From Actinoallomurus bryophytorum (GTDB lineage Bacteria; Actinomycetota; Actinomycetes; Streptosporangiales; Streptosporangiaceae): DNA of 64,000 nt. The notes beneath the pieces are model-generated. The model was given only the letters and a program-made list of their open reading frames with translations, was not told where the DNA came from and searched no databases. This document shows positions 1,852 to 61,772 of the stretch, piece after piece. How positions within the stretch are numbered: the stretch's first letter is position 1; each line of letters opens with the position of its first letter. The stretch spans positions 6,696,001 through 6,760,000 of the forward strand of contig NZ_VFOZ01000001.1 of assembly GCF_006716425.1 (NCBI RefSeq), read 5' to 3'. A program made the translations under genes and the position numbers.

Positions 1852-1897
1852 CGTGGTCCCACCCTGCCCCTGGCGGCTGCGGCGTACCTGGGGGTTT

Positions 1898-1917
1898 CTT
1901 CAGAATTACCTCTGAAG
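1898..1917. promoter_or_regulatory. Inverted repeat in divergent promoter region
   Basis: CTTCAGA and TCTGAAG form perfect 7-base arms around a 6-base spacer, 47 bases upstream of the response-regulator start and about 120 bases upstream of the flavocytochrome gene. An 11-base stretch overlapping the right arm (CCTCTGAAGGA, 1909-1919) recurs with one change (CCTCAGAAGGA) at 1966-1976. A second repeat, GGTCAC-N6-GTGACC, lies at 1933-1950. They look like regulator sites for the divergent promoters; no binding protein is proven. Confidence 0.45.
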
Positions 1918-2035
1918 GATGGCAAACGCACTGGTCACGGTGGGGTGACCGGCCGTACACAGGCGCCTCAGAAGGAATCCACAGGAACCGGCAGCAGGGT
2001 GGGGACCTCCACCAACCGCTCACTCGGGGGAGCCT

Positions 2036-3388
2036 GTGACGACATTCGACGGCCGGGTCACCACCCGCCGCCCGGTCCGTGCCGGCCCGGCATACGTGCT
2101 GGTGCCCGTCGCCGCCGGCGCCGCGGCGATCACCGCGCTGTGGTGGCACGACACCCCGGCGATCACGAACGCCGGGGACTGGATCACCAATGCCGGCCGT
2201 GTCACCGGCCTTCTCGCCGGCTACGCGGCCGTCGTGCTGCTCGCGCTCATGGCGCGGGTCCCCGCGCTCGAACGCGGCGTCGGGACGGACCGGCTCGCGC
2301 GATGGCACGCGATGGGCGGCCGGTACATGGTCGGGCTCGTCGTGGTGCATCCCCTGCTGATCATCTGGGGGTACGCCGTCACCGCGCACACCGGTGTCGT
2401 GCACCAGACCGCGACGCTCCTCCTCAGCTACCCGGATGTGCTCATGGCGACGGTCGCGGGCCTGCTCCTCGTCGGCGTCGGCATCGTCTCCATGCGTGCC
2501 GCCCGGCGGCGTATGCGCTACGAGACCTGGTTCTACCTGCACTTCTACACCTATCTCGCGATCGCGCTGGCGTTCAGCCACCAGTTCGCGACAGGCGCCG
2601 ACTTCATGGCGGACCGCGCCGCCCGCGCCGCCTGGGCCCTGCTCTACCTCGGCGTCGGATGCCTGCTCGTCTGGTACCGCTTCGTCACGCCCCTGCGCCG
2701 GGCGGTCGTCCACCGGTTGCGCGTCGCCGGAGTGCACCGCGAGGCACCCGGGGTGGTGTCGATCTACGTCCGGGGGAGACGCCTGCACGAGCTGGGTGCC
2801 GAGCCCGGTCAGTTCTTCCGCTGGCGGTTCCTGACCCGGGAGCTCGGCTGGGCGGCCAACCCGTACTCGCTGTCCGCACCCGTACGACCGGACCTGCTCC
2901 GGATCACGGTGAAGGACTTCGGCGACCACAGCGCGGCGCTCACCCGGGTACGGCCCGGCACCCGGGTCTTCGCCGAGGGGCCGTACGGGTCGTTCACCGA
3001 AGGGCGGCGACGGAGCCGGAAGGTGCTGCTCCTGGCGGGCGGGGTCGGGATCACGCCGTTGCGGACGCTGTTCGAGACGCTGCCCGGCGGCCCCGGCGAG
3101 ATCACGCTCCTGTACCGGGCCACCCGCCGCTCCGACCTGGTGTTCGAGCAGGAGCTCGTGGCGATCGCGCGGGCCAGGGGAGCGGCCGTGTACGTCCTGG
3201 CCGGCTCACGCGCCGAGCTCGGCGCGGACCCGCTGGCGCCGGCGGAGCTGACCCGGCTCGTTCCGGACCTTCCCCGGCACGACGTGTACCTCTGCGGCCC
3301 GGACGGCATGACGGCCGCCGCCACCACGGCGCTGCGCGCGGCCGGGGTCCCGCGACACCGGATCCACCACGAGTCGTTCGCGTTCTGA
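2036..3388 (+). CDS. Ferric-reductase-like transmembrane flavocytochrome
   Basis: Membrane NAD(P)H oxidoreductase of 450 residues. The N-terminal half is a ferric-reductase-type heme b domain with about six helices; paired histidines H91/H105 and H169/H182 have the spacing expected of two b hemes. The C-terminal half is a ferredoxin-NADP reductase module: FAD motif NPYSLS (275-280), nucleotide motif GGVGITP (335-341) and a late CGPDGM motif. It probably passes electrons from cytosolic NAD(P)H across the membrane. The GTG start has GGGGGA just upstream. It is followed by genes for a flavin-carrier protein and the enzyme that attaches its FMN, so the carrier is the likely electron acceptor. Confidence 0.9.
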   Translation: MTTFDGRVTTRRPVRAGPAYVLVPVAAGAAAITALWWHDTPAITNAGDWITNAGRVTGLLAGYAAVVLLALMARVPALERGVGTDRLARWHAMGGRYMVGLVVVHPLLIIWGYAVTAHTGVVHQTATLLLSYPDVLMATVAGLLLVGVGIVSMRAARRRMRYETWFYLHFYTYLAIALAFSHQFATGADFMADRAARAAWALLYLGVGCLLVWYRFVTPLRRAVVHRLRVAGVHREAPGVVSIYVRGRRLHELGAEPGQFFRWRFLTRELGWAANPYSLSAPVRPDLLRITVKDFGDHSAALTRVRPGTRVFAEGPYGSFTEGRRRSRKVLLLAGGVGITPLRTLFETLPGGPGEITLLYRATRRSDLVFEQELVAIARARGAAVYVLAGSRAELGADPLAPAELTRLVPDLPRHDVYLCGPDGMTAAATTALRAAGVPRHRIHHESFAF

Positions 3389-3398
3389 GGAGGAACAC

Positions 3399-3842
3399 AT
3401 GAAACGGGCGATCCTCGCCATTGCCGGGACGATCTCCGGCCTGGTCCTCCTGCTCGGCTTCAAGACCCATCCGGCCGGTCAGGCGGCGGGCGGTGTCACG
3501 GACACGAGCACCGGTACGGCGGCGGGGCCGAGCCCCGGCGTCACGTCCGGCAACGGTTCGTCCGGCACCCGTACCGTCCAGGGAAGCAGCATCGACACGC
3601 AGTGGGGCCCGGTCCAGCTCCAGGTGACGCTGACGCACGGGAAGATCACCAAGGTCACGGCGCTCCGGCTCCCCGACGGCAACCAGCGCGACCGTGAGAT
3701 CAACGACTTCGCCGTGCCGCGGCTGACCCAGGAGGCGCTGTCCGCGCAGAGCGCGCGGATCGACGCCGTGTCCGGCGCGACCTACACCAGCGAGGGGTAC
3801 ATCCGGTCGCTGCAGAGCGCGCTGGACAAGGCGCGCTCATGA
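3399..3842 (+). CDS. FMN-binding domain protein with SGAT motif
   Basis: A 147-residue exported or membrane-anchored flavoprotein. A hydrophobic N-terminus (residues 3-20) is followed by a Gly/Ser/Thr/Pro-rich linker (about 30-58) and a compact FMN-binding domain. The SGAT motif at 125-128 is the usual covalent FMN attachment site, on T128. The start has a strong GAGGAGG ribosome site 10 bases after the flavocytochrome stop. Its stop overlaps the ApbE start (ATGA), so carrier and modifying enzyme are translationally coupled. Likely role: extracytoplasmic electron carrier receiving electrons from the flavocytochrome. Confidence 0.88.
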   Translation: MKRAILAIAGTISGLVLLLGFKTHPAGQAAGGVTDTSTGTAAGPSPGVTSGNGSSGTRTVQGSSIDTQWGPVQLQVTLTHGKITKVTALRLPDGNQRDREINDFAVPRLTQEALSAQSARIDAVSGATYTSEGYIRSLQSALDKARS

Positions 3843-4711
3843 CGGCCCGGCGGCACGTGGAGCACTGCATGGGCACCGTCTTCTCCTTCGATCTCCGTCC
3901 CCCTCACGTCCCCGCGGCCGTCCTGGAGGACGTCGTCGCCTGGCTGCACCGGATGGACGCGACGTTCTCCCCGTACCGGCCGGGCAGCGACATCAGCCGG
4001 CTGGCCCGGGGCGACGTCACGCTCGCCGGGTGCGCACCGGAGGTGGGGGAGATCCTCGGCCTGTGCGACCGGCTGCGGGAGGCCACCGCCGGCTGCTTCA
4101 GCGCATACGCGTCCGGGACTCTGGACCCGTCGGGCGTGGTCAAGGGCTGGGCCGTCGAGTCGGCCGCGGAGATGCTGCGCCGTGCGGGCTCCCGCAACCA
4201 CAGCGTCAACGGCGGAGGCGACCTGCGACTCGACGGCGGTCCGGAACCCGGCCGGCCCTGGCGGATCGGCATCGCCGACCCGCTGCGGCCCGGTGCCGTC
4301 GGCACCGTCGTCGTGGGGCGCGACCTGGCGGTCGCCACCTCGGGAACGGCCGAGCGCGGGGCCCACATCCTCGATCCCCGTACGGGCCTGCCCGCGGAGG
4401 GCCTCGCGTCGGTCACCGTCGTGGGGCCCGATCTGACCACGGCCGACGCGTACGCGACCGCGGCCTTCGTCATGGGCGACGCCGCCCGCGACTGGATCGA
4501 AGGACTGCCCGGCCACGAGGCGTACGCCGTGGCCGCCGACGGCCGGAGCTGGACGACGAGCGGCCTGCGCCCGGCCGCGGCGGACGAAGTCGGGTTACCG
4601 CACCGCCCGGCCGCGACGCCGCCGATCCCGGATGTCAGCGCCGGAGGGCGTCGAGCACCTCGGCCGCGCTCTGCCGCGTACGGCGCGAGTCGTCGGCCGT
4701 TAGCGCGGTGA
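3839..4711 (+). CDS. apbE: FAD:protein FMN transferase (ApbE family)
   Basis: Transfers the FMN half of FAD to a Thr/Ser of target flavoproteins; the target here is almost surely the SGAT protein encoded immediately upstream. Family landmarks are MGTVFSFDL near the N-terminus, YRPGSDIS, the glycine-rich NGGGDLRLDGG and the TSGTAERGAHILDPRTG metal/FAD region. No lipobox or clear signal peptide is present, so the protein seems cytoplasmic, unusual for ApbE and perhaps acting before export. The last ~25 codons overlap the 3' end of the convergent HEAT-repeat gene by 77 bases and look unlike the family, so the functional domain probably ends near residue 255. Confidence 0.9.
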   Translation: MTARRHVEHCMGTVFSFDLRPPHVPAAVLEDVVAWLHRMDATFSPYRPGSDISRLARGDVTLAGCAPEVGEILGLCDRLREATAGCFSAYASGTLDPSGVVKGWAVESAAEMLRRAGSRNHSVNGGGDLRLDGGPEPGRPWRIGIADPLRPGAVGTVVVGRDLAVATSGTAERGAHILDPRTGLPAEGLASVTVVGPDLTTADAYATAAFVMGDAARDWIEGLPGHEAYAVAADGRSWTTSGLRPAAADEVGLPHRPAATPPIPDVSAGGRRAPRPRSAAYGASRRPLAR

Positions 4712-6074
4712 GCAGCTCGATCGCCCGGTCCCCGCCTGGTGGGAGCGCGCCGTGTTCCCGTACGTACCGGCCGAGCCCGAGCGTGGCGTGGTAGCGGGCG
4801 GGTTCGTCAGGGTCGTCCAGATGCGCGAGGAAGCGGTCCACATCGGCCTCGTGGAGCAGCGACAGCGCCGCCGCCCGTACCTCGCCCGACGGGTGGTCCG
4901 CCAGGCCCCTGAGCCTGGGCAGCGCCTCGGGGTAGCCGGTCAGCGCGTTGCGGGTGTGCCAGGCCAGCCCAGGGTCGGCCACGAGGAGGTCCACCAGCTC
5001 CTCCACCACCGCGCGGCGCTTCGAGCGCGGCAGCCGTTGGTCGCCCAGCAGCCGCAGGCCGTCCAGTGCCCCGATGCGTATCCGCTCGTCCGGATCGCGG
5101 ATGAGCAGGAGCAGCAGGCCGGCGGTCCGCTGGTCCCCGAGCTCGCCCAGGACACTGGCCGCGACCGCCCGCACGTAGGGATGGGGCGACCGGGTGACGG
5201 CCGACTTGATATGCCGTACGGCGGACGGCGTGCCGATGCGGGCCAGTGCCCGTACGGCGAGCGGGCCCACGGTGGGGTGGCCGAGCCATCGGACCGCCAT
5301 CGTCAGGGCGCGGCGATCGCCCGAGCGGGCGAGCGCGTGGAGCAGCGTCCGGGCGACGTCCGGATCCCGTTCGTGCTCCAGCGCCGCCAGCAGGACGCCG
5401 GCCGTGCCCGGTTCGTCGGCCAGCCTGCGCGCCACGGCGGCACGTAGTTCGGGAGCCTGACCGCGGAGGCCGCTGAGCAGGGAGTCGCGCAGCCGCGGCG
5501 TGTAGCGGGCGGGCAGCATCTCCAGCGCCTTCACGCGTGCCGCGACGGAACCCTGCCGGGCCGTACGCAGCACCTCGGCCACCACGGCCTCCTCGCCCAT
5601 CCGGGCGCTGACCAGTTTGAGCGCATGTCCCCAGATGGCGGGCTCAGGGTCGCCCAGCAGCCGCACCAGTACGCGGAGATCGCCCGGTGCGTCCAGCCGG
5701 ATCAGCCCGGCGAGTGCGTTGAGCCGTACGTGGCGGTCCTCGTCCGACAGCAGCCGACCGAACGCCTCGGTGACGGCCGGGCCGGTCAGCGCGAGCCGGT
5801 CGGCGGCGACCGAGGCCCGGCGGCGCACTCGCGGGTCCGCGTCCGCCATCAGGCCGATCAGCACGTCACCGGTGCCGGGGACGCCGAGGCGGCCGAGACC
5901 GAGCGCCGCGGCCGCGCGTACGACGGGCTCGGGGTCGCGGGCCGCGTCCACGAGGACCTGAGCGTGCTCGGCCCGGCCGATGCGGCCGAGTCCCTTGGCG
6001 GCGGCCGCCCGCCGCTCAGGGTCCGGCTCCGCCGACTCCCGCAGGAAGAAGGTGATCTGATGTTCGGTGCCCAC
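4635..6074 (-). CDS. HEAT-repeat domain protein
   Basis: A 479-residue soluble protein built almost wholly from about 14 alpha-helical HEAT-like repeats with recurrent L-G-D/R and A-A-x-A-L-G-x-L patterns (for example DPEPVVRAAAALGLGRLG). Such solenoids bind proteins or RNA; no catalytic motif is visible. I chose the GTG at 6074 because AGGGGAGGAG lies just upstream; an in-frame ATG at 6155 has no ribosome site and would add 27 unlikely residues. The gene is convergent with apbE and overlaps its 3' end by 77 bases. Function unknown. Confidence 0.82.
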   Translation of the reverse strand: MGTEHQITFFLRESAEPDPERRAAAAKGLGRIGRAEHAQVLVDAARDPEPVVRAAAALGLGRLGVPGTGDVLIGLMADADPRVRRRASVAADRLALTGPAVTEAFGRLLSDEDRHVRLNALAGLIRLDAPGDLRVLVRLLGDPEPAIWGHALKLVSARMGEEAVVAEVLRTARQGSVAARVKALEMLPARYTPRLRDSLLSGLRGQAPELRAAVARRLADEPGTAGVLLAALEHERDPDVARTLLHALARSGDRRALTMAVRWLGHPTVGPLAVRALARIGTPSAVRHIKSAVTRSPHPYVRAVAASVLGELGDQRTAGLLLLLIRDPDERIRIGALDGLRLLGDQRLPRSKRRAVVEELVDLLVADPGLAWHTRNALTGYPEALPRLRGLADHPSGEVRAAALSLLHEADVDRFLAHLDDPDEPARYHATLGLGRYVREHGALPPGGDRAIELLTALTADDSRRTRQSAAEVLDALRR

Positions 6075-6196
6075 GCCGCTCCTCCCCTGAAGAAGACGTT
6101 CGTGCCGCCCGTCCGGTGTACAGAGCCACCAAACGGCCTGTCCGGATAAGGACATTTACAGGGAGTTGACGGTGAGGAAAGATTCAGCTGACCGGT

Positions 6197-6213
6197 GAAA
6201 CGGGGGCCGTTTC
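6197..6213. promoter_or_regulatory. Inverted repeat upstream of importer gene
   Basis: GAAACGG and CCGTTTC flank a GGG spacer, 48 bases before the solute-binding protein start and between divergent genes. Size and position suit a repressor operator. The regulator is unknown; the IclR in this window has a different candidate motif. Confidence 0.35.
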
Positions 6214-6260
6214 GTGCGGGCGCATAAGGCGCAGGTTCGATTCATCGGTGTCCGGAGGTA

Positions 6261-7289
6261 ATGGTGAGGCTCAGGCGATCACGCATAATCGCAATGATCA
6301 TGGCAACGGTGGCCTGTGCGGCCCTGAATGGTTGTGGGGGGTCCGATGACAAGCCCGGCACCTCCGTGGATCACGTCACCTATCTCACCGCGTTCGGCGC
6401 GGCGGGGCGCGACGCGTTCGTCTGGATCGCGGCGGAGAAGGGCTACTTACGGTCCGCCGGCATCGACGTGCGGATCCAGCTCGGCAAGGCGGCCGGGGAG
6501 AACCTCAAGGCGCTGAGTTCGGGCCAGGCCCAGTTCGCGGCCCTCGACCTCACCGGCGCGATGATCGCCGCGTTCGGCCGCCAGAACTCGGGATTCAAGG
6601 ACTTCCGCGCCGTCCTCGCCGTTCATCAGCACACCCTGGTCTCGATCATGAGTGAAGAGGGGTCGGGGATCACCTCGCCCAAGGACCTCGAGGGCAAGAC
6701 CATCGCCGCCGCCGCGAACGGGGTCAACCAGTTGCTCTTCCCCGGTTACGCGAAGCTGGCCGGTATCGACGCGAGCAAGGTGAAGTGGGTCGCGGTGCAG
6801 CCGGTGCAGCTGGGCAACACCCTCGCGAGCGGAAAGGTCGATGCCCTCAGCACATTCCTGATCGGGCGTCCCACCATCGAAAAGGCCACCCTCCAGGCCC
6901 ATAAGAAAAAGGTGGTGGTCCTTCCGTACAGCGAATACCTACCCGATCTGTTCGGAAACGCGGTGATCGCGCGAACCGATCTCATCAAGAGCAAACCCGG
7001 TCTCGTCGAACGTTTCCGCGGCGCGATGCTCAAGGCACTGGAATACACCGTCGCGCATCCCGACGAGGCCGGCGCCCTGCTGCACGCCAAGCAGCCCGCG
7101 ACGGCCGCCGACGCCGCAAGCGAGGAGATCAAGTTGATGACCCCGTCGGTCACCGCGACGGACGGCGGATCGGTGGTCGGCGCGATCGACCGGGCGCGCA
7201 TGGCGCGCACCATCACCGAACTGCAGAAGATCGGGCTGCTCCGGCCGGGAGTGACTCCGGAAGACGTGGTCGACTTCGATGTCATGTGA
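6261..7289 (+). CDS. ABC transporter solute-binding lipoprotein (NMT1/SsuA type)
   Basis: A 342-residue periplasmic-binding-type lipoprotein. Lipobox LNGC puts the lipidated cysteine at residue 25, followed by a flexible linker and an NMT1-like fold (GRDAFVWIAAEKGYLRSAGIDV is typical). This class binds nitrate, sulfonates, taurine, riboflavin or pyrimidine precursors. GGAGGT sits so close to the ATG that the GTG three bases on (6264) may be the true start. Permease and ATPase partners are at 8111 and, on the opposite strand, 8926-9687. The substrate is not readable from sequence; the nearby hydantoinase-like gene makes a pyrimidine- or hydantoin-like ligand worth testing. Confidence 0.85.
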   Translation: MVRLRRSRIIAMIMATVACAALNGCGGSDDKPGTSVDHVTYLTAFGAAGRDAFVWIAAEKGYLRSAGIDVRIQLGKAAGENLKALSSGQAQFAALDLTGAMIAAFGRQNSGFKDFRAVLAVHQHTLVSIMSEEGSGITSPKDLEGKTIAAAANGVNQLLFPGYAKLAGIDASKVKWVAVQPVQLGNTLASGKVDALSTFLIGRPTIEKATLQAHKKKVVVLPYSEYLPDLFGNAVIARTDLIKSKPGLVERFRGAMLKALEYTVAHPDEAGALLHAKQPATAADAASEEIKLMTPSVTATDGGSVVGAIDRARMARTITELQKIGLLRPGVTPEDVVDFDVM

Positions 7290-57885: not shown

Positions 57886-57978
57886 CCGAACGGCGGGCTT
57901 TAAGCGTGTCCCCGAGTCGATCGGCGTAACCCTAACGAGGGCGTGTCTCGAAGTCCTCGGTCTGGGCCCCGCCGATCC

Positions 57979-58118
57979 GGGGCTGCGGGTCTGGGGCTGC
58001 GGGTCTGGGGCTGCGGGTCTGGGGCCCGCCGGTCTGGGGCTGCGGGTCTGGGCCCCGCCCCGCCTGGGGGCCCTCCCGCCTGGGGGCCCTCCCGCCCGGG
58101 GGCCCTCCCGCCCGGGGG
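57979..58118. repeat. Two adjoining GC-rich tandem repeat arrays
   Basis: Array A: a 14-base unit GGGGCTGCGGGTCT at 57979, 57993, 58007 and 58036, with a 15-base variant at 58021. Array B: a 16-base unit GGGGGCCCTCCCGCC(T/C) at 58066, 58082 and 58098. They fill most of the 349-base gap after the monooxygenase gene. Strong G-run asymmetry could form unusual DNA structures. Confidence 0.85.
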
Positions 58119-58189
58119 TGCCATCCCACTCTTATTGTCCAGCGGGAACAGCGGCGGGTGGAAGTAGAGCGGGGTTCTGTGGATAACGT

Positions 58190-58234: not shown

Positions 58235-58603
58235 CTAGTGGACGAGCTTCTCGACCGCCTGCCTCAGGCGCTCCGCGCCTTCGGCGAGAGGGACGACGGA
58301 GGTGAGGATGGTCGTGAGCCGGCCGACCGCGGCCGTGAGGCGGCCGCGGTCCGGCTTGGCCCTGTCGAGCTGGTCGGCCACCTCCGTCATCTTCTCCTCC
58401 GCCTCGCTCTGCGCCGCCTCGGAAAGATCCGAACCGTGCTCGGCCAGCAGGGTGCGGAGTTCCCGCAGCTCGTTCACGGTCTGCTCGGCCGCCGCGGCCT
58501 GGTTTGATGCTCGCGCCTTGGCGCCGATCGCCATCGCGCCGGTGTTGATGATCTGTCCGTTTCCGCCTTGGAAAATGCCGTCGTTACGTCCCACGTGCGT
58601 CAT
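58235..58603 (-). CDS. Small coiled-coil protein with N-terminal Gly/Asn motif
   Basis: A 122-residue protein of unknown function. Residues 7-31 contain NDGIFQGGNGQIINTGAMAI, then a mostly helical, Glu/Ala/Leu-rich body likely to form a coiled coil, ending AEGAERLRQAVEKLV; the body recalls DUF5955-like small proteins. The Gly/Asn segment closely matches the C-terminus of the protein coded immediately upstream (58624-60132). GAGAGG precedes the ATG; 20 bases separate the two genes. Shared assembly through the common motif is my inference. Confidence 0.7.
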   Translation of the reverse strand: MTHVGRNDGIFQGGNGQIINTGAMAIGAKARASNQAAAAEQTVNELRELRTLLAEHGSDLSEAAQSEAEEKMTEVADQLDRAKPDRGRLTAAVGRLTTILTSVVPLAEGAERLRQAVEKLVH

Positions 58604-58623
58604 GAGGACCTCTCAGGTAGGAA

Positions 58624-60132
58624 TCACGATGCCGATGCCGAGGCGTCCGTGCCGACGGCCATTTGTCCCGCGTTGCTTATGGTTCCGCCGCCGGTCTGGA
58701 TCATCCCGTAGTTGAGGATCGTCGCCTGGCGGGCACGGAACTCCCCGGTGTCCATGCCCTTCTTCTCGAGAAAGTCGATGACGATCTCCAAGAAGCGGCG
58801 CTCGATGATGTCGCCGTACTTTCCGGCGTCGACGGACTGGAAGAAATGCTGATACTCCTTCGCGTGCGCCAGCTCACGAATGCTGGTGCGAGCTCCGTAG
58901 TCGAAGGCGTCGATCTTCTTGCCGGGGAGCTCGATGCCGAGCGAGACCTCGCCCTCCAGGGATGGCTGGTCTCTCTTGATCACCAACGACCACAGGCGGT
59001 AGGGCAGGAGGACGAGGAGGAGGACGGCCTCGACCGCCTCCCGGACCATCCGCAGGACCGACTCACCGGCGATCAGGCAGACCTCGCCATCGGTGATCTC
59101 CGGCGAAAGGCGGTCCGCCGCGCGGTACGCGGGGTTGAGCGGTGGGAGGACGTATCTGTGGAACTCGGTGTAGAGCGTCCGGCCCTTGACGTCGAAGTTG
59201 ATGAACGCCGACGAGACGACCTCCTGGCCCCACGATCCGATACGGACGCAGAGGTACTCACGTGCGGAGTCGTAGCGTTCGCCGCCCTGTGAGGAGGACG
59301 AGACGTCGGCCGGTGACTCCGGGCGCTCGGGTCCGACCGCGGTCCGGTACCAGCGCCGCGATATGTCCAGGCCCTCGATCTGCTGGTCACCCCATCCCTC
59401 ATCCTTGAGGGTGGCCTCGAGCCGCTCCTGGACGTACTCGAAGATCTCGCCGGCCGGAAACGCCTCGACCTCCGCCGCGTCATCGAGGCCTGGGCGGCCG
59501 TCGAGCGAGACCGCCAGGGAGCCGCGTGCCTTGTTGAGCAGGATCGGAAACTTCGAGGAGTTCCGCCGGATCCCAGCGCCGATGAAGGGGTCGTAACCGC
59601 TGTAGTAGACCAGCCCGGAACCGCTGTCCTGCTCGCGGTTGATCCGGTCGCAGTCGTAGGCGGTCAGCATCGGATGGACGGGGATGCGCCCGTCGAAGCC
59701 GTGCCGATCGCGAGAGGTCCGCGGGTCTGCGAGATCAGTGGTGAGGATGTGCAGGGCGACCAGGCGCTCGGCGCATATCGCGGCCCATGTCGCCCAGAGC
59801 CACAGCGCCACTCCGATGGCGAAGGCCATGGTGCCGAAGAAGAACAGGAACACGGGGATCAGCGGGCTCAGGATGACGACCACACGGCGGCGGGACCGGC
59901 GTTGCCGCGCGACGAGGGCGTGGCCCAGCACGGGAAGGACGTCGAAGCCGAATGACGGCGCCACGAACCGATCACTCTCGCTGACGAGCTCCCTGATCAC
60001 CGCGTCAGAGAAGGCGGGGTCCACGTGGGCGCCGACGCACAGGAGCCGGGTCACCTCACTTGAGGCGTACGGCCGCGCCGAGAGCCGTGAGGTGGATCGA
60101 CGCTCACCGGACCGCCGAGATGGTGATGCCAT
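58624..60132 (-). CDS. Membrane protein of unknown function with C-terminal Gly/Asn motif
   Basis: 502 residues. An N-terminal cytoplasmic part (to about 80), a hydrophobic hairpin near 85-125 (VVVILSPLIPVFLFFFGTMA onward), a large central soluble region (GLVYYSGYDPFIGAGI, EYVQERLEATLKDEGW), a second hydrophobic stretch near 365-385, then a helical region and a C-terminal motif with YGMIQTGGGTISNAGQMAVG. GGGAGGA precedes the ATG. Middle gene of a three-gene leftward operon. No enzyme motif was recognised. Confidence 0.75.
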   Translation of the reverse strand: MASPSRRSGERRSTSRLSARPYASSEVTRLLCVGAHVDPAFSDAVIRELVSESDRFVAPSFGFDVLPVLGHALVARQRRSRRRVVVILSPLIPVFLFFFGTMAFAIGVALWLWATWAAICAERLVALHILTTDLADPRTSRDRHGFDGRIPVHPMLTAYDCDRINREQDSGSGLVYYSGYDPFIGAGIRRNSSKFPILLNKARGSLAVSLDGRPGLDDAAEVEAFPAGEIFEYVQERLEATLKDEGWGDQQIEGLDISRRWYRTAVGPERPESPADVSSSSQGGERYDSAREYLCVRIGSWGQEVVSSAFINFDVKGRTLYTEFHRYVLPPLNPAYRAADRLSPEITDGEVCLIAGESVLRMVREAVEAVLLLVLLPYRLWSLVIKRDQPSLEGEVSLGIELPGKKIDAFDYGARTSIRELAHAKEYQHFFQSVDAGKYGDIIERRFLEIVIDFLEKKGMDTGEFRARQATILNYGMIQTGGGTISNAGQMAVGTDASASAS

Positions 60133-60171
60133 GCTGGTCCTCCCGTTTCCGCGGAGAGTGGCAATACATGA

Positions 60172-60963
60172 TCAGAAATCGTCGGAGGTGATCGTTTGCA
60201 GGTCGTACTCGCCGGCGATCGGATTCCAGAGGGAGACGAATTCCTCCTTGGCCTTTCCCGCTCTCGTGCTCGCGGATTCGCCGTCTTTGTAATTTCTGCC
60301 GCCGGTCGGAGCCTGACCGTCACACTGCCCATTGCTCACGTCGCGTCCCCAGGCGGCGAACGCATTGTCGGCCGCGGCCGATTCCGTGAGGGCGGTCACC
60401 AGAGCCTGCGCGGCTTCCTGGCCGCCGCTGAGGCGGTCGACGGACGCCTGGCCGACCTGATCGGCGATCTCCGACCGGTCGGTGCCGGCCTGGGTCAGTG
60501 CCGAGATGTCCGCGTCGAACCCGTCACCGCTGCCACACGCCTGGATGTCCTGGACGGCCGAGATCACCGTCTGGTGGTCCGTGATCGCCTGTTGCAGAAG
60601 GCCCTGGAGGGCCGCTGCCTGCGACGGGCCGTCGGTGGCCGCCGGCGACGGGTCCTCCGATGGAGCGTCGCTGCTGACCGGCTCCTGCGGAACGTCGGTG
60701 TCACCGGGCACGCCCGATCCGCTGCCGGTGTAGCCGGCCGAAGAGCCGTCGCCGCCGCCGGACCAGGGGTGAGCGATCAGGATCACGATCGCGAGCACCG
60801 CGACGAGGCTCGCCCCCATGACGAACAGGGCGACGCGCCGTATCTGAAAGGGAAGAGACTGGAAGGTGGTCGTGGAATATGTTTCCGCCGACCAGTTGTC
60901 AACCGGTGAGAGATTACCCGCGTCGAAGTCATCACGCCCTGTTTCCACGGCGCCCACCCCCAT
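60172..60963 (-). CDS. Single-pass membrane protein with Cys-containing outer domain
   Basis: About 263 residues. A short cytoplasmic N-terminus, one membrane helix (VALFVMGASLVAVLAIVILI), a Gly/Ser/Pro/Asp-rich linker and a helical extracytoplasmic domain with two cysteines (IQACGSG, NGQCDGQ). First gene of the operon with 58624-60132 (39-base gap). The start is uncertain: ATG 60963 or GTG 60948, preceded by G-rich bases. Topology suggests an exported sensor or scaffold; no family recognised. Confidence 0.65.
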   Translation of the reverse strand: MGVGAVETGRDDFDAGNLSPVDNWSAETYSTTTFQSLPFQIRRVALFVMGASLVAVLAIVILIAHPWSGGGDGSSAGYTGSGSGVPGDTDVPQEPVSSDAPSEDPSPAATDGPSQAAALQGLLQQAITDHQTVISAVQDIQACGSGDGFDADISALTQAGTDRSEIADQVGQASVDRLSGGQEAAQALVTALTESAAADNAFAAWGRDVSNGQCDGQAPTGGRNYKDGESASTRAGKAKEEFVSLWNPIAGEYDLQTITSDDF

Positions 60964-61256: not shown

Positions 61257-61772
61257 ATGGATGCACGTCTGGATCGAATCAAGGCCGCGTTCGATGCTCT
61301 CGACACCAACTCCAACGGTTACCTGGAGGCGGGCGACTTCGACAGGCTCGGGCACCGGATCGTCCAGGCCCTCGACGTGGCGGAGAGCTCACCCAAGGCC
61401 CAGGCGATGCACGCGGGCTGCCGTCGCTACTGGCAGGGCCTTGTCGGCACCCTCGACCGGAACGGCGACGGGAGGCTGACCTGCGAGGAGTACGCACGGT
61501 TCCACGAACCTGACGGGTACGAAGGCAACGTCCGCCCCTACGCGGAGGCGTTGACCGCGATATGCGACCGCGACGACGACGGCTTCGTCCAGCACGCCGA
61601 CCTCGTGCGGGGGCTGGGGGCCGTGGGCTTCCCCGTGGCGAACATCGAGGATCTCTCCCGGGCGCTCGACCCACAGGGCACCGGCCAGGTCTCCAGGATC
61701 GAGTGGCGGACCGCCATCGAGGACTTCTTCCTCACCAAGGGCAGTCACTCCGTCGGCGACACCCTCGTCTGA
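61257..61772 (+). CDS. EF-hand calcium-binding protein (calerythrin-like)
   Basis: A 171-residue protein with four EF-hand loops: residues 16-27 (DTNSNGYLEAGD), 67-78 (DRNGDGRLTCEE), 104-115 (DRDDDGFVQHAD) and 138-149 (DPQGTGQVSRIE). The first three keep good Ca ligands; the fourth lacks acidic residues at positions 3 and 5 and may be weak. Layout matches prokaryotic calerythrin/sarcoplasmic calcium-binding proteins, cytosolic Ca buffers or sensors. GGAGG precedes the ATG; monocistronic with its own terminator. Confidence 0.92.
   Translation: MDARLDRIKAAFDALDTNSNGYLEAGDFDRLGHRIVQALDVAESSPKAQAMHAGCRRYWQGLVGTLDRNGDGRLTCEEYARFHEPDGYEGNVRPYAEALTAICDRDDDGFVQHADLVRGLGAVGFPVANIEDLSRALDPQGTGQVSRIEWRTAIEDFFLTKGSHSVGDTLV

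Follow-up and report, generated by a model that had tools for sequence, protein, structure and literature searches.

The BASS motifs of Bell/NLR gene pairs (BASS 1-10, Dyrka et al. 2020) join the products of adjacent receptor and effector genes, TIR effectors included (PMC8086366, PMC7889193). In fungi, the PNP_UDP-associated amyloid signalling motif (PUASM) forms fibrils and links PNP_UDP effectors to NLRs (PMC9815663). Bacterial conflict systems repeatedly employ PNP_UDP, TIR and EAD modules as effectors or adaptors (PMC7159879, PMC8195603), and one review raises the question of whether bacterial signalling amyloids also act in NLR-independent pathways (PMC7889193). Here we describe a three-gene module (P3, P2 and P1) within a 64,000-nucleotide stretch of the Actinoallomurus bryophytorum genome (contig NZ_VFOZ01000001.1, positions 6,696,001 to 6,760,000), hereafter called the window, in which two adjacent genes end and begin, respectively, with the same motif.

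With the BASS systems, the P2/P1 pair has in common a motif of 20-40 residues shared by the ends of neighbouring genes, its occurrence in filamentous actinobacteria and the presence of TIR effectors. It differs from them in that P2 sits in the membrane and lacks an NTPase domain and there is no NLR, in that the motif lies at the C-terminus of the presumed receptor and the N-terminus of the effector, which is the reverse arrangement under the roles that we prefer, and in that the usual effector is a DUF5955 protein rather than a recognised Bell domain. The pair may work like a BASS-type signalosome, but it is kept apart from that class because of the absent NLR and the reversed ends. Searches with Pfam and NCBIfam gave no NTPase match in P2 and 26 homologues.

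The likeness to PUASM lies in a Q/G/G-spaced hydrophobic pattern common to the PNP_UDP_1 effector and the receptor. In PUASM, however, the receptor is a fungal NLR and the motif is at the effector C-terminus, and the similarity is not clearly above shuffled controls (shuffle fractions of 0.01-0.14 for the present motifs against the one validated fungal PNP_UDP-linked peptide, with no clear match). As in RHIM, PP and HET-s signalling, a short homotypic motif would couple a sensor to a death effector, but P1 and P2 had no match to the Pfam amyloid or RHIM profiles at E up to 1 (short profiles miss diverged motifs), and the I-Q-T-G core of P2 resembles the RHIM tetrad by eye only. The EAD1/GAP1 systems also place a homotypic module on a core protein and on an effector encoded by the adjacent gene, with an effector repertoire overlapping the one found here (PMC7159879), and EAD1 itself is present here in some of the downstream partners, though not on both proteins of a pair. 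An EAD is a folded domain of about 90 aa, in most cases helical (PMC7159879), whereas the present motif has 27 residues and no predicted structure. Finally, EACC1 belongs to an actinobacterial system of two genes, one for a membrane component and the other for an effector that varies; there, a single-TM domain occurs with a caspase-type protein (PMC7159879), whereas P2 is much larger and has a helical hairpin. A Pfam search found no EACC1 match in P2 or its homologues.

The shared motif and the proteins that carry it

A sequence-only reading of the window had reported one motif at the facing ends of two consecutive genes, and the gene positions and minus-strand order that it gave for the three genes were confirmed (Table 1). 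The genes are closely spaced, with 39 bp between P3 and P2 and 20 bp between P2 and P1. The C-terminal motif of P2 and the N-terminal motif of P1 (NYGMIQTGGGTISNAGQMAVGTDASAS and NDGIFQGGNGQIINTGAMAIGAKARAS, respectively) align without gaps and are identical at 14 of 27 positions; their composition is rich in G, A, S, N and Q and poor in charge. The Smith-Waterman score of this alignment is 65, a value reached by none of 100,000 shuffles of the P1 N-terminus (mean 25.1, sd 4.9, maximum 58), so that the reported likeness is beyond chance; no other open frame of the whole window scored above 45. Just past the module, a plus-strand gene (61257-61772) encodes a 171-aa EF-hand protein (Pfam EF-hand). 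On the other side, short G/C-rich repeats (GGTCTGGGGCTGCG, GGGCCCTCCCGCC) occupy positions 57960-58120, between the module and an upstream plus-strand monooxygenase gene.

Table 1. Features of the P3-P2-P1 module (window positions) and of the second P2-type locus of the same genome (positions within locus L134)
Feature	Position	Strand	Basis or remark
P3, 263 aa, single-pass membrane protein with outer domain	60172..60963	-	Sequence, hydropathy; motif absent
P2, 502 aa, membrane-anchored presumed receptor	58624..60132	-	Unnamed in Pfam/NCBIfam
P2 hydrophobic hairpin, residues 84-133, predicted transmembrane helices	59734..59883	-	Hydropathy and AlphaFold
P2 cytosolic alpha/beta domain, residues 172-461	58750..59619	-	AlphaFold; weak Bet v 1/START (helix-grip) likeness
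P2 C-terminal (receptor-side) motif, residues 474-500	58633..58713	-	Alignment; disordered in model
P1, 122 aa, presumed effector/adaptor, motif plus DUF5955 helical bundle	58235..58603	-	Pfam, AlphaFold
P1 N-terminal (effector-side) motif, residues 7-33	58505..58585	-	Alignment; low-confidence coil in model
P1 four-helix bundle (DUF5955), residues 30-121	58241..58516	-	AlphaFold; Pfam PF19380 above cut-off
L134, divergent ORF, HTH plus macro-like in appearance	1854-3050		Precedes receptor
L134, second P2-type receptor	3007-4854		Overlaps PNP_UDP_1 gene
L134, PNP_UDP_1 protein	4826-5902		Directly after receptor
L134, Macro-domain protein	5896-6972		After PNP_UDP_1

Neither P2 nor P3 had a match in Pfam, NCBIfam or PADLOC, and no relatives of P2 were found among solved structures by profile search. 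The hydropathy of P2 peaks at residues 84, 102 and 367. An AlphaFold monomer model built with 27 aligned relatives is confident in the body of the protein (mean pLDDT 78) and places helices at residues 65-88 and 101-133 in the hairpin region. The cytosolic domain contains an inserted long, partly hydrophobic helix (residues 348-388). Most of the top VIA-align rows for this domain are of the Bet v 1/START fold, a weak likeness (best Z 6.2, below the level that the tool considers meaningful, with an rmsd of 3.5 over 124 residues; best Foldseek E 0.029). Since the fold match reaches a Z of only 6.2, we put forward ligand sensing by P2 as a hypothesis. The tail (residues 476-502) has a pLDDT below 50, about 40 in the motif, and is disordered in the model. 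In the alignment of the family, an N-terminal block and a cytosolic part are conserved, with the hydrophobic region between them and the motif at the very end.

The helical part of P1 matches DUF5955 (PF19380), a Pfam family of unknown function, with 28.2 bits against a gathering cut-off of 27.1; of 41 P1 relatives, 31 match the family at E up to 0.01. The AlphaFold monomer model (41 relatives) gives the bundle a pLDDT of 95-98 over most of its length and leaves the motif as a low-confidence coil. P1 had earlier been called a coiled-coil protein; it is indeed helical, but a four-helix bundle is the better description. This bundle matches generic helical bundles only (Foldseek, VIA-align), the best Z of 11.1 being inside the range that the tool calls uninformative for bundles, and a profile search against solved structures returned coiled-coil-like matches only. 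The most hydrophobic 19 residues of P1 average only 1.45. P1 is not a peptidase, and its PADLOC match to PDC-M14B (E 1.8e-5) was treated as a match of helical composition; with that profile, 247 genomes gave no hit at E 1e-8, and neither did the controls of the search. Some DUF5955 matches away from P2 look real, namely L038 and L045, in which the DUF5955 protein starts with a motif (FRFGDVRGPVNAGSGNLN) but has no P2 upstream; others (L050, L054, L055 and L059) were set aside as unrelated coiled-coil proteins. Among the openly available papers searched, none names DUF5955, and an earlier description within the subscription literature is possible.

Homologues and covariation of the two motifs

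A single-sequence search detected P2 homologues in 139 of 297 genomes of the window's order; in a sample of 395 genomes from the class, a profile search found them in 67, many of these belonging to one large genus outside the order. The 69 named loci come from Nonomuraea, Actinomadura, Streptosporangium, Planomonospora and relatives. Nearly all of the homologues end in such a motif, and the very next gene starts with a matching one, the two genes overlapping or lying no more than 50 bp apart in 120 of 124 pairs; a few keep a motif-like tail without a recognisable adjoining partner (L103, for example). The motif is kept in homologues of both P2 and P1.

Covariation was assessed in a first set of 72 loci, in which partners were chosen by their DUF5955 helical domain or by position and never by the motif. 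The mean motif score was 65.3 with a P2's own neighbour, compared with 38.9 with partners from other loci and 25.0 with shuffled sequences, and none of 20,000 permutations reached the observed covariation. Control segments (the preceding 50 residues of P2 and the partner's C-terminus) scored about 20. When the set was reduced to 22 non-redundant loci, with P2 bodies less than 55% identical, the observed value was 1542 against an expected 775 (sd 58), no permutation in 100,000 reaching it. When partners were exchanged between loci with less than 45% identity, the score fell in over 99% of cases. For 54 further loci, forming a second set, the values were 71.4 against 32.7 (0 of 100,000 permutations); this set is slightly biased, as the motif score served to choose the partner frame, and three of its loci repeat the first set.

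Individual loci illustrate the matching. L006 has an unlike version of the motif and yet a matched pair (SGQGHNIGGSNN with SGQGNNIGGSGN), GGQQHGINFG pairs with itself in L037, and the matched pair of L191 is His-rich. Divergent yet internally matched pairs of this kind are what a private homotypic contact would predict. Both the presence of the motif in homologues of the two proteins and its covariation within each locus support the earlier proposal that it is a shared interaction element of the adjacent proteins.

Downstream partners and P3

The gene downstream of P2 occupies an exchangeable slot. Its commonest occupant is a DUF5955-type helical protein; a PNP_UDP_1 nucleosidase takes its place in 13 loci (L003, L113, L134, L175, L177, L184, L187, L190, L191, L193, L195, L196 and L223), a CAP12/Pycsar-type TIR protein (CAP12-PCTIR_TIR) in one (L011), and in four (L205, L207, L208 and L209) the downstream partner carries EAD1, all as identified by Pfam, which detected no EAD1 in the P1 and P2 of the window. 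The closest relative found for the window's P2, in L003 (49% identical), has a PNP_UDP_1 partner, so that even close relatives differ by an exchange of effector. The earlier guess of a signalling or conflict system is upheld by these partners, the motif tying a membrane protein to effectors of conflict type. With the motif present in homologues of both proteins, covarying and tied to such effectors, the refuting condition set by the sequence-only reading does not overturn its proposal.

The window's own genome contains a second P2, in L134 (contig C1, 6840000-6850000, outside the window), whose motif matches that of its partner weakly (score 26). Its neighbours (Table 1) suggest an ADP-ribose or nucleotide-based output. 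The genome holds two P2-type lines with unlike motifs, and locus-specific motif matching would be a natural model for how such parallel lines are kept insulated from one another within a cell.

P3 has one strong hydrophobic segment, from residue 45 (Kyte-Doolittle 2.96), in agreement with its earlier description as a single-pass protein with an outer part, and its outer domain contains two invariant cysteines (C143 and C214). In a survey of the window and L061-L129, a P3 homologue, sometimes in two copies, lies in the examined flanks of 49 of 70 P2 loci. Members of the family also occur elsewhere, at about one to three copies per genome; as the genomes span several million bases, chance would not account for 49 of 70 loci, and a functional link between P3 and P2 is therefore probable. 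P3 is nearly always encoded on the strand opposite to P2, the window and L003 being cases of the same strand. Because P3 lacks the motif and mostly lies on the opposite strand elsewhere, the suggestion that all three proteins form one complex is not supported for it. P3 may perhaps act as an outer sensor.

Proposed coupling of P2 to P1 and alternative explanations

We consider it fairly probable that P2 acts as receptor and P1 as effector, the two being coupled through a homotypic motif, and that clustering of P2 nucleates a probably amyloid assembly that activates P1. P2 would be anchored in the membrane by its helical hairpin, and its folded cytosolic domain would probably sense a ligand or a change in the membrane. 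A stimulus would reach P2 with or without the participation of P3, the activated P2 would cluster, and the C-terminal motifs would nucleate a beta-rich, probably amyloid, assembly. As covariation, position and analogy suggest, this assembly could recruit and template the N-terminal motif of P1, so that the attached helical bundles are brought together and switched on. The output would most likely be an arrest of growth or the death of the cell, serving defence or self-recognition, given that PNP_UDP_1, TIR or EAD1 proteins fill the same slot elsewhere. AlphaFold folds the bodies of both proteins and leaves the motifs disordered, as expected if the motif folds on assembly.

Amyloid signalling, as in the BASS, RHIM and HET-s systems, is the likeliest form of this coupling, suggested by analogy with BASS and PUASM and by the composition of the motif. 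HET-s-type amyloids are beta-solenoids. The sequence-only reading had offered a short beta-solenoid or a trimer as the form of the motif; the former is compatible with our reading, and nothing favours the latter. More tentatively, and with slightly more doubt than confidence, we propose that an NLR-independent amyloid pathway is widespread in actinobacteria, with a membrane-anchored receptor that senses a ligand or lipid and is perhaps controlled by P3, exchangeable cytosolic death effectors and private, locus-specific motif pairs. With its constant membrane receptor, more than 100 loci with matched motifs and swapped effectors of known types, the P2 family is a testable candidate answer to the question raised by the review of the field. 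If the proposal is true, it would give DUF5955 and the unnamed P2 family their first role.

Alternatively, the motif might be a constitutive, non-amyloid docking element, a beta-solenoid or beta-sandwich with one copy per protein that parks P1 on P2, signalling then occurring by release or rearrangement. The covariation would suit any homotypic contact, one member each of the P2 and P1 families matches B_solenoid_ydck weakly (E 0.0035 and 0.0018, respectively), and in L049 and L037 the motif resembles repeated solenoid turns. However, each copy is disordered in its AlphaFold model (27 and 41 aligned relatives), albeit in monomer runs, and TIR, PNP_UDP and EAD partners are typical of systems activated by assembly. 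We regard constitutive docking as unlikely.

An exchange of roles, with P2 as a membrane-acting executioner (Bell- or HeLo-like) and the downstream protein as sensor or activator, would bring the motif positions into agreement with the published Bell/NLR layout (PMC8086366, PMC7889193), and P2 is a membrane protein by both hydropathy and AlphaFold. Yet the downstream PNP_UDP_1, TIR and EAD1 proteins act as effectors or adaptors in other systems, and P2 is the constant partner, with a large folded domain, which makes this exchange quite improbable. Less probable still is a toxin-antitoxin-like arrangement in which the DUF5955 protein binds the P2 tail and keeps P2 inactive. A small, all-helical partner and a tight operon with frequent stop-start overlap would fit such an arrangement, but the slot also accepts enzymes and EAD1, and a swap to a nucleosidase or a TIR protein bearing the same motif is unexpected for a neutraliser.

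That a glycine-rich linker was recently copied by DNA duplication or gene conversion, with no shared function, is extremely improbable: identical residues share a codon in 1106 cases over all pairs against 965 expected from local codon usage (sd 19), most markedly in L195 and L196, but the codons of the window pair agree less often than expected (38% versus 51%), and the conservation of many motif versions across many genera is hard to explain without selection. In some loci (L195 and L196), one motif copy has probably been overwritten by the other at the DNA level. The lower-than-expected codon agreement in the window indicates that its pair is old and has been maintained at the protein level. 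In L195, L196 and L191, the neighbouring motif copies are near-identical in protein sequence and their codons are unusually alike.
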